Assembly: GCA_947588825.1 (NCBI GenBank)
Contig: CANPZU010000001.1
Span: 50,237-114,236 of the forward strand
From: an uncultured Clostridia bacterium
GTDB lineage: Bacteria > Bacillota > Clostridia > Oscillospirales > CAG-272
Reading direction: 5' to 3'
DNA length: 64,000 bases
Made by a program: the position numbers and the translations under genes. Position 1 is the stretch's first letter; every line of letters starts with the position of its first letter. Shown piece after piece: positions 20,474-22,951 of the stretch. The notes beneath the pieces were generated by a model. That model did no database searches and had not been told where the DNA came from. It saw nothing but the letters and a program-made list of their open reading frames with translations.

Positions 20474-21703
20474 TTGGAATGTGCTGAGCTTCTTCTTCCC
20501 GCGGGAAATTTCGAAAAACTCTGCTTTGCACTGCGCTTCGGAGCCGACGCGGTTTATATTTCGGGAAAGCGTTTCGGTATGAGGGCGGCGGCGGACAATT
20601 TCACCGTCGAAGAAATTCATAAATGCGTCGAGTATTCCCATAATCTCGGCAAAAAGGTGTATTTGACGCTCAACACCATGCCTCACTGGTATGAGTATGA
20701 GGACATTAAAAAGTATCTTTGTGAAATTGCCGGCGCCTCTCTTGACGCCATGATCGTCGCCGACGTAGGGGTTCTTGACCTTGTAAAGGAGGCGGCGCCG
20801 AACATTCCCGTTCACATATCGACTCAAGCGGGGGCGGTATCTCACGCCGACTGCATTCACTGGTACAAAAGCGGCGCCTCAAGGGTGGTGCTTGCAAGAG
20901 AGCTTTCTTTTGAAGAGATAAAGAACATAAAAAGCCGGATACCGAGCGAGCTTGAGCTTGAGTGTTTTATACACGGTTCCATGTGCGTTTCCTACAGCGG
21001 CAGATGCCTGCTGTCAAATTATTTGACGGGCAGAGACGGCAACAGAGGTTTTTGCGCGCAGCCATGCAGATGGGAATACAGAATTTTTGAAATAGAGGAG
21101 GCGAAGCGGCCGGGAACCCGCATTCCGGTCGAGCAGGACAAATTCGGGACCTTTGTCATGAGCTCAAAGGACCTCTGCATGATAGAGCATATACCCGAGC
21201 TTATGGAGAGCGGGATCTCCTCTTTTAAGATAGAGGGCAGGATGAAAAGCGCATACTATACAGCCGTGTGCGCCAATACTTATAAAATGGCAATGGACGC
21301 GTATGTCCGCTCCAAGGACGGCTATCGCTTTGACCCTTTGTGGTTGCGGGAGCTTGAGAGCGTCACTCACAGAGAATACTCGACTGGTTTTTACTTTGAT
21401 TCCCCGGGGGAAAACGCACAGATTGTATCTTCGCCCGGATATTTGCTTGAAAAATCATATCTTGCCTTTGTCGAAAGCTATGACCCCGAAAACGGCAGAG
21501 CCACTCTTATACAAAAAAATAAAATGTTTGATTGTTCCTATGCCGAGTTGTTGACTCCCGGTTCGCTTGGGAAGCGCTTTTATGTCGAGGATATGAGGGA
21601 CGCTGACGGCAACAAAATAGCAGACGCGCCTCACCCCGCGATGCGTTTTACAATCAAGGCTCCCTTTATGTTTAGAGCGGGAGATATCGTGCGCATGGCG
21701 TAA
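20474..21703 (+). CDS. Peptidase U32 family protein
   Basis: 'LLLPAGNFEKLCFALRFGADAVYISGKRFGMRAAADNFT...ELECFIHGSMCVSYSGRCLLSNYLTGRDGNRGFCAQPCRW'. TTG start. Confidence 0.92.
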   Translation: MECAELLLPAGNFEKLCFALRFGADAVYISGKRFGMRAAADNFTVEEIHKCVEYSHNLGKKVYLTLNTMPHWYEYEDIKKYLCEIAGASLDAMIVADVGVLDLVKEAAPNIPVHISTQAGAVSHADCIHWYKSGASRVVLARELSFEEIKNIKSRIPSELELECFIHGSMCVSYSGRCLLSNYLTGRDGNRGFCAQPCRWEYRIFEIEEAKRPGTRIPVEQDKFGTFVMSSKDLCMIEHIPELMESGISSFKIEGRMKSAYYTAVCANTYKMAMDAYVRSKDGYRFDPLWLRELESVTHREYSTGFYFDSPGENAQIVSSPGYLLEKSYLAFVESYDPENGRATLIQKNKMFDCSYAELLTPGSLGKRFYVEDMRDADGNKIADAPHPAMRFTIKAPFMFRAGDIVRMA

Positions 21704-21808
21704 GCGTCAAAAAAATCGCTTTGCGTAAAATATTTCGGTTGACAAATAAACGGTGTTAGTGTAAAATATATATATCTGTAAATTTAGGATTTGCAAAGGA
21801 GAACTTTT

Positions 21809-22951
21809 GTGGAACTTTATATAATAATTCTTTTGGTGTTTGCCTCTTTGGCTATTTCGGCAGGCGTAATATTCGGGGAATATATTTATACAAACAAGAA
21901 GAATCCGTTTTACTCTCTTATTCCCGCCGGAGCGGCGTGGGGCTTTGATTTTATATTGCTGATCATAATGCTCATCGCGGGCGCCGAGCTGTCCACATGG
22001 GCCACGACGTTCTACATTTTTCAGATCCCTGTCCTATTGGGAGTCATAAGTCTTGTGTACTTCAGAAGAAAGAGACGCGAAGGAGCCATTGCCGAACAGC
22101 AAAAGGAGGCGCGTATCAAGACCGCGCGTAAGATGGAGGAGGACAAGCACCGCAGACTGCTTGAGACTCTTCGAGGCTTTTACTGCGCGGAAAGCAAGAT
22201 GAAAGCGGAAGGACAGCGCGAGATAGTCATCCTTTCAAATTCGGGAAAAAGTGTGGAGGAAATAGCGGCTCTTTCCGGGGCGAATGAAAAAGAAGTGCAG
22301 CTTATTGTCAAAGCTTTCGAGCGTTACAACTCGAGAATAAACGGCGAGGCGGGCACGTCGGATCTCATTTTTACCCCCGAGCAGGAAGAAGCAATTGTCA
22401 CAAACGTTATAAACGGTCTGCCCTATGAGCACTCGATAGACGCGCGGCTTTGGACAAAACAGTCGATACGCGCTCTCGCGGCCGATCTTGTTGACAGCAG
22501 CGTTTCGATAAGGATCATAGCGGCGTATATGAGGCATTGGGGATTTACCGTCCCCGTAAGACAAACCATAAAGCACAGAAGCAGCCAGCCTAACGTGCGC
22601 GCTTGGCTTGCGGGCGAGTTTGAAAACATACGCAAAAAAGCCTTCGAGGAAAACGGAGAGATAATGTGGATATACACCGTCCCGCTCGACGCGGTGAACA
22701 GCATCTCCGCCTTTATGCCCGCAAATCCGGTAATGATCTGCGCCGTCAGTAACGACGGTTCGATAGGTTTTAAGGTTTATGACAGCGCCGACAAACGCGC
22801 CTTTGACGATTTTATAGACGCGCTTTCCGAATCATTTAAATACAAGATATTTGCCGTGGTAAATGAAAATTACGACGAATACAGCAAATCTGTGGGTAAG
22901 GAAAAACTCAAGCTGCTTTCTAATAAGATAGAGCTATTTCCTTCGGCGTGA
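21809..22951 (+). CDS. Membrane-anchored, catalytically degenerate IS630-like transposase derivative
   Basis: GTG start after AAGGAG. Three predicted TMs, then an IS630-type HTH and wHTH layout ('LWTKQSIRALAADLVDSSVSIRIIAAYMRHWGFTVP...VRAWLAGEFENIRKKAFEENGEIMWIY') and a truncated DDE-fold remnant ('KIFAVVNENYDEYSKSV...KIELFPSA'). Confidence 0.65.
   Translation: MELYIIILLVFASLAISAGVIFGEYIYTNKKNPFYSLIPAGAAWGFDFILLIIMLIAGAELSTWATTFYIFQIPVLLGVISLVYFRRKRREGAIAEQQKEARIKTARKMEEDKHRRLLETLRGFYCAESKMKAEGQREIVILSNSGKSVEEIAALSGANEKEVQLIVKAFERYNSRINGEAGTSDLIFTPEQEEAIVTNVINGLPYEHSIDARLWTKQSIRALAADLVDSSVSIRIIAAYMRHWGFTVPVRQTIKHRSSQPNVRAWLAGEFENIRKKAFEENGEIMWIYTVPLDAVNSISAFMPANPVMICAVSNDGSIGFKVYDSADKRAFDDFIDALSESFKYKIFAVVNENYDEYSKSVGKEKLKLLSNKIELFPSA

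Follow-up and report, generated by a model that had tools for sequence, protein, structure and literature searches.

A predicted membrane protein fused to a catalytically dead IS630 transposase in three genera of one Clostridia family

The fused gene and its expression signals

The window, by which is meant the whole stretch of DNA that was analysed, is 64,000 nt of the genome of an uncultured Clostridia bacterium (Oscillospirales; CAG-272; assembly GCA_947588825.1), namely positions 50,237-114,236 of the forward strand of contig CANPZU010000001.1. The features of the fused gene and of the region upstream of it are as follows.

20474..21703, + strand: U32 family gene, the conserved upstream neighbour (PF01136 and PF16325; TrhP is the nearest NCBIfam model, with a score below its cut-off)
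21739..21767, + strand: promoter TTGACA-17-TAAAAT of sigma-A type, past the stop of the U32 gene and before the fused coding sequence
21795..21801, + strand: ribosome-binding site of the fused gene, AAAGGAG
21809..22951, + strand: fused coding sequence from a GTG start to the stop at 22951, encoding 380 aa (membrane domain with three spans, stem, and truncated, catalytically dead IS630 transposase)
21815..22063, + strand: membrane domain with spans at aa 3-21, 38-56 and 67-85, predicted N-out, C-in from the distribution of K and R
22064..22198, + strand: basic stem, aa 86-130, family-specific, aligning to IS630 at its end only
22169..22186, + strand: family signature LxxFxC, just before the first HTH (HTH1)
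22208..22330, + strand: IS630-type HTH1 (aa 134-174), now acidic
22370..22558, + strand: winged HTH of IS630 type, aa 188-250, with its charge lost
22655..22948, + strand: IS630 RNase H-like part (aa 283-380), which ends short of the third acidic residue
22667..22678, + strand: WIYT where IS630 has WxDE, the first catalytic D replaced by Y
22859..22870, + strand: VNEN where IS630 has xDN, the second catalytic D replaced by E

The open reading frame of the initial annotation is right in its GTG start, its AAAGGAG ribosome-binding site and its 380-residue product. The three N-terminal hydrophobic spans followed by RRKRRE are likewise present, and the spans are found at matching positions in 14/14 members of the fused family.

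In genera g1 and g54, the fused gene is predicted to have a dedicated strong promoter of its own. A match at 11-12 of 12 positions is located 69-82 nt before the start codon in seven other homologues examined from these genera (G004, G001-G003, G057, G250 and G168), and when seven upstream regions (those of the window, G004, G001, G002, G057, G250 and G168) were resampled, 0-15 of 2000 resamples were as good. Genus g7 is as a rule without such a promoter; there the fused gene follows close behind the U32 gene and has a strong ribosome-binding site. Within the coding sequence, positions 22491-22518 of the window also resemble a promoter (TTGACA-16-GATCAT), which is one of five such matches in the window versus 3.3 expected by chance. 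In L036, L003, L038, L039, L040 and L041, a GGATGTG stretch is conserved approximately 10-20 nt 5′ of the start codon; no good Shine-Dalgarno sequence was seen at these starts, and the choice of start is uncertain.

Relationship of the soluble part to IS630 transposases

The soluble part had been described as following the domain order of an IS630 transposase (HTH, winged HTH, RNase H-like), and three kinds of comparison bear this out well above chance. The NCBIfam model for IS630 (NF033545) matches the window protein with E=4.9e-8 and 32.8 bits, below its curated cut-off of 100 bits, and it matches 13/14 fused-family members. A tblastn search against plasmids returned 50 records; among the matches listed, nearly all are annotated as IS630 transposases, down to E=9e-15, and the alignments span residues ~121-377, never the first ~120. 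Profile comparison by HHalign of the soluble part with four IS630 sequences gave a probability of 99.5% and E=3e-23 over 234 columns, and the RNase H-like part by itself gave 92.8% and E=3.9e-7. When the family is aligned jointly with 11 IS630 transposases, the core landmarks P205, W215, L223, W266 and F335 do not vary. In Pfam, the window protein has only sub-threshold HTH matches; a profile search of the PDB returned no relevant match, PADLOC and PHROGs returned nothing meaningful for the fused protein, and the phage records searched contained no match to it. An AlphaFold2 model built from two sequences has a mean pLDDT of 45, which is too poor to judge surfaces.

The motifs WIYT and VNEN and the stop before the third acidic residue, pointed out in the initial annotation as departures from IS630, are real in the alignment with IS630. 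No close homologue with an intact DDE triad was found, the first catalytic aspartate being Y, F or Q in every fused-family member tabulated. The second is E in the window and in most members from g1 and g54, is kept as D in L040 and L007, and is lost in the remaining g7 members. In g1 and g54 the C-terminus stops before NPxE, the window protein ending just before LPxYSPxxNPxE, and members from g7 keep only a scrap of the third-acidic region (YIPENP, DIPE). Among the reference IS630 transposases, 10/11 have all three catalytic residues, and L145 has N at the first position. By this evidence, no member of the fused family can be a working DDE transposase. The search for inverted repeats found no IS-type pair flanking the open reading frame, as had been noted by eye; the only pair that brackets it is 75% matched and has one arm inside the U32 gene.

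As judged from its sequence, the gene almost certainly occurs once, on the chromosome, and encodes an inner-membrane protein that consists of a three-span domain and an IS630 transposase without its catalytic site. The likeness to IS630 transposases (Tc1/mariner superfamily) is in the order of the domains and in the homologous residues ~121-377. Unlike them, the fused protein has no DDE triad, a truncated C-terminus, three N-terminal spans and an acidic DNA-binding half, and its gene has no terminal repeats that could be found and is present as one copy per genome with the same neighbour.

Charge of the DNA-binding half

The net charge of HTH1, the linker and the winged HTH (aa 134-262), only a proxy for DNA binding, is -7 to 0 in nine family members versus +6 to +16 in 11 IS630 transposases. 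The two ranges do not overlap (Mann-Whitney p=2e-4, only indicative because the rows are related). In the joint alignment, the fused family lacks the basic GR(P/R)xG-type linker that joins the HTHs of IS630, and the recognition helix of HTH1 carries acidic residues. R235, R242 and H243 remain in the recognition helix of the winged HTH of the window protein, a helix that is not conserved in genus g7. Some HTH regulators are acidic overall. The loss of charge and of the basic linker argues against the ancestral IS630 mode of DNA binding, which has probably not been retained. The stem before HTH1 is basic, with a net charge of +3 to +12, and may allow some nucleic-acid contact.

Truncated, dead transposases can inhibit active copies, and on this general ground the fused protein might be a domesticated transposase retained to repress IS630 elements in a dominant-negative way. 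Such a role is very improbable: no IS630 transposase scores over the cut-off in the window's own genome, IS630 is rare in the order (2/99 genomes over the cut-off), the charge for DNA binding is lost, and a membrane anchor would hinder the repressor.

The membrane domain and its relatives beside DUF2089

From counts of K and R, the soluble C-terminal part is predicted to be cytoplasmic. At the junction of the stem with HTH1, residues L121, F124 and C126 of the LxxFxC signature are invariant in 14/14 members. A match of 1/14 members to the flippase model TIGR00374 (E=6e-4) was rejected as a match to membrane composition, and L011 and L031-L033 were rejected as non-homologous membrane proteins.

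When genomes of the order and class were searched with a profile of the fused family, seven short proteins with the membrane domain only (E<=1e-6) were found besides IS630 transposases. Four of the seven are encoded directly beside a DUF2089 gene, and three of these four overlap it as open frames. HHalign of the fused-family membrane domain with the short family gave a probability of 97.4%, E=1.3e-11 and a score of 65 over 86 columns; in the controls, the reversed alignment scored 18, 60 local column shuffles scored at most 30, and 11 other neighbouring families, multi-span ones included, scored 9-15. Further members of the short family, mostly adjoining DUF2089, turned up when 247 genomes of the order were searched with it, and the two-gene version (small membrane protein and DUF2089) is present in genera g27 and g64 of the same family as the window. 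Because the short-family profile (A5) by itself failed to match the window's own protein at E=1e-3 in a search of its own genome, the evidence for the link is the profile-profile result together with the genomic pairing. By these two lines, the membrane domain of the fused protein is related to the ~105-aa three-span proteins whose genes adjoin those of DUF2089 HTH-SHOCT regulators in other Clostridia.

The small partners of DUF2089 have the homologous three-span domain and a GLIxP-like stretch after span 1, as does the fused protein; they differ in being separate proteins of ~105 aa, often with a KMNIQDL-type tail, whereas the fused protein has the IS630 part and no tail. The fused gene is not beside DUF2089, for which no match was found in the genomes G000-G004 (g1) or G010 (g7). 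Mutual exclusion of the fused gene and DUF2089 is not claimable, and no overlap is expected anyway, because DUF2089 is present in only 11/198 genomes of the window's family.

DUF2089 proteins are ZnR-HTH-SHOCT proteins linked to membrane-stress operons, and their systems are predicted to couple membrane stress with transcription (PMC11237479). The fused protein resembles these DUF2089/PSP-linked systems (PMC11237479) in coupling a membrane component with an HTH-containing one, but its HTH part is of unrelated, transposase origin.

The initial annotation compared the fused protein, as a membrane-tethered DNA-binding or signalling protein, with CadC and ToxR. If it is a tethered DNA-binding regulator, the IS630 HTH pair would bind DNA, perhaps at new operators, under the control of the membrane domain, and the protein would be a one-protein version of the DUF2089 and small membrane protein pair. 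Both HTH domains keep their fold and are under selection, and the related small membrane proteins partner HTH regulators of systems predicted to tie membrane stress to transcription; nevertheless, in all members compared, both HTHs have lost their positive charge and the basic linker is gone, the recognition helix of HTH1 contains acidic residues, and that of the winged HTH is not conserved in g7, whereas the HTHs of DUF2089 proteins keep a basic recognition helix. CadC and ToxR have an N-terminal cytoplasmic winged HTH, one span and a C-terminal extracytoplasmic sensor. The fused protein shares with them an HTH on a membrane protein and is unlike them in its reversed order, with three spans first, in having almost nothing outside and no extracytoplasmic sensor domain, and in its acidic HTHs. 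DNA binding by the HTH pair is weakened as a proposal by these observations, and a tethered regulator of this kind is possible but disfavoured, being on the whole unlikely.

Distribution, neighbourhood and selection

The fused gene is present as one copy per genome in 15 genomes of uncultured gut Clostridia belonging to three genera (g1, g54 and g7) of one family, in 5/5, 3/4 and 7/7 genomes searched of the three genera; the window's own genome has a single copy, and the reading frames are intact in 14 complete copies. No fused copy was found in the other genomes searched, which are 397 of the family, 396 of the order and 392 of the class (partly overlapping sets, approximately a thousand genomes). 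The location before rny and ymdB had been taken as a sign of a stable chromosomal gene. These two genes do follow in the window, but a survey of synteny showed rny as a neighbour in only part of one genus, and rny adjacency was rejected as the conserved arrangement. What stays constant is the U32 gene on the upstream side: in 12/15 genomes it directly precedes the fused gene, in two others a single gene intervenes, and in the remaining one its position falls past the end of the contig. In G001 and G003, U32 and the fused gene are separated by a gene for an esterase-like secreted protein, and in G002 such a gene immediately precedes the fused gene (L036 3179-4495, L038 282-1589, L003 1-1338).

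Pairwise dN/dS by the NG86 method, where the closer pairs weigh most because several pairs approach saturation at synonymous sites, is ~0.03-0.1 for the window versus L002 where dS is estimable (0.07 for the membrane domain, 0.10 for the winged HTH and 0.03 for the RNase H-like part), 0.07 overall for L003 versus L004, and 0.04 for the RNase H-like part of L044 versus L045. In the most divergent pair, L046 and L047, the membrane domain is relaxed. Purifying selection acts on every domain, the RNase H remnant included. In a tree of U32 proteins, a single change accounts for the carriers of the fused gene, although support for the branch uniting these carriers is weak (56/79). A single fusion with retained function is very probable; the fusion would most likely have happened once, in the ancestor of the three genera and beside the TrhP-like U32 gene, and would then have been kept by purifying selection. 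The earlier descriptions of a stable chromosomal gene and of a domesticated transposase both stand, in that the gene is transposase-derived, immobile, single-copy, vertically inherited with the same upstream neighbour, and selected.

A decaying pseudogene or chance fusion without function, to which the degenerate motifs and the great divergence of the g7 homologues might point, is scarcely credible given the intact frames, the low dN/dS of every domain, the conserved promoter and the presence of the gene in nearly all genomes of the three genera.

The constancy of the U32 gene raises another alternative, namely that the fused protein is a partner of this TrhP-like enzyme that anchors or regulates tRNA or RNA modification machinery, its RNase H-like fold and stem contacting RNA or protein. 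The adjacency holds across very divergent homologues and is operon-like in g7, where the two genes are 25-135 nt apart. Against such a partnership, the U32 gene is present in 74/81 family genomes searched, most of them without the fused gene, the fused gene has its own promoter in g1 and g54, and the adjacency may be mere inheritance from the insertion site, so that this explanation is rather improbable. In the other genera examined, the genes behind U32 include uppP-like, pgk and galactokinase-like ones (named by eye) among others, and no membrane protein of the fused kind was seen there.

Proposed function of the fused protein

The tentatively preferred explanation is that the protein may be a membrane-anchored, non-catalytic docking or output module with the IS630 fold. 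The spans and the basic stem would hold the fold at the inner face of the membrane, where the HTH and RNase H-like scaffold would offer another protein a non-enzymatic platform for docking or signal output. It would not be a cutter of DNA, and probably would not act by the old IS630 mode of DNA binding. The best candidate for a coupling or contact site would be LxxFxC. A more speculative history, somewhat less likely than not, is that a membrane domain of the DUF2089-partner type might have exchanged its separate HTH partner for a fused IS630 scaffold, which might then have lost catalysis and DNA binding to become a protein-protein output module.

Most known cases of transposase exaptation in bacteria involve nucleases and DNA binders. 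The fused protein presents a DDE transposase fold at the membrane, with catalytic residues and DNA-binding charge gone, yet selected across three genera, and raises the testable question of what role is left to a transposase fold that has stopped cutting DNA and, probably, binding it. How prokaryotes exapt the genes of mobile elements has been well reviewed, and a search of the text of that review showed no membrane-anchored DDE transposase (PMC8987985); nor was a report of one found in the openly searchable literature. TldR is a nuclease-dead derivative of TnpB used as an RNA-guided regulator (PMC13418256). Like TldR and other exapted transposon proteins (PMC13418256, PMC8987985), the fused protein is a mobile-element protein kept after the loss of catalysis; unlike it, TldR binds DNA under RNA guidance. 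If the output-module explanation is true, a DDE transposase fold would serve as a membrane signalling domain, a use of which no report was found.

The unnamed family of small three-span proteins

The analysis also brings to light an unnamed family of small membrane proteins that go with DUF2089 regulators, a group likewise uncharacterised. The ~105-aa proteins scanned matched no family in Pfam or NCBIfam. Members are located as follows.

L053 502-858, - strand: ~105-aa three-span protein
L054 1453-1785, + strand: ~105-aa three-span protein
L055 1465-1809, - strand: ~105-aa three-span protein
L059 1453-1815, + strand: ~105-aa three-span protein
L097-L100, L102-L106, L108-L112 and L135-L137: further loci of the family

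These genes often overlap their DUF2089 neighbour, and many of the products end in the KMNIQDL-type tail. A second type of DUF2089 protein in the window's family (L127-L134) has a zinc-ribbon-like N-terminal part, and no adjacent small membrane gene was found for it. Tandem duplicates of the small membrane gene are located behind one DUF2089 gene in L102 (1034-1459 and 1480-1818, + strand) and L103 (1480-1836 and 1840-2265, - strand).
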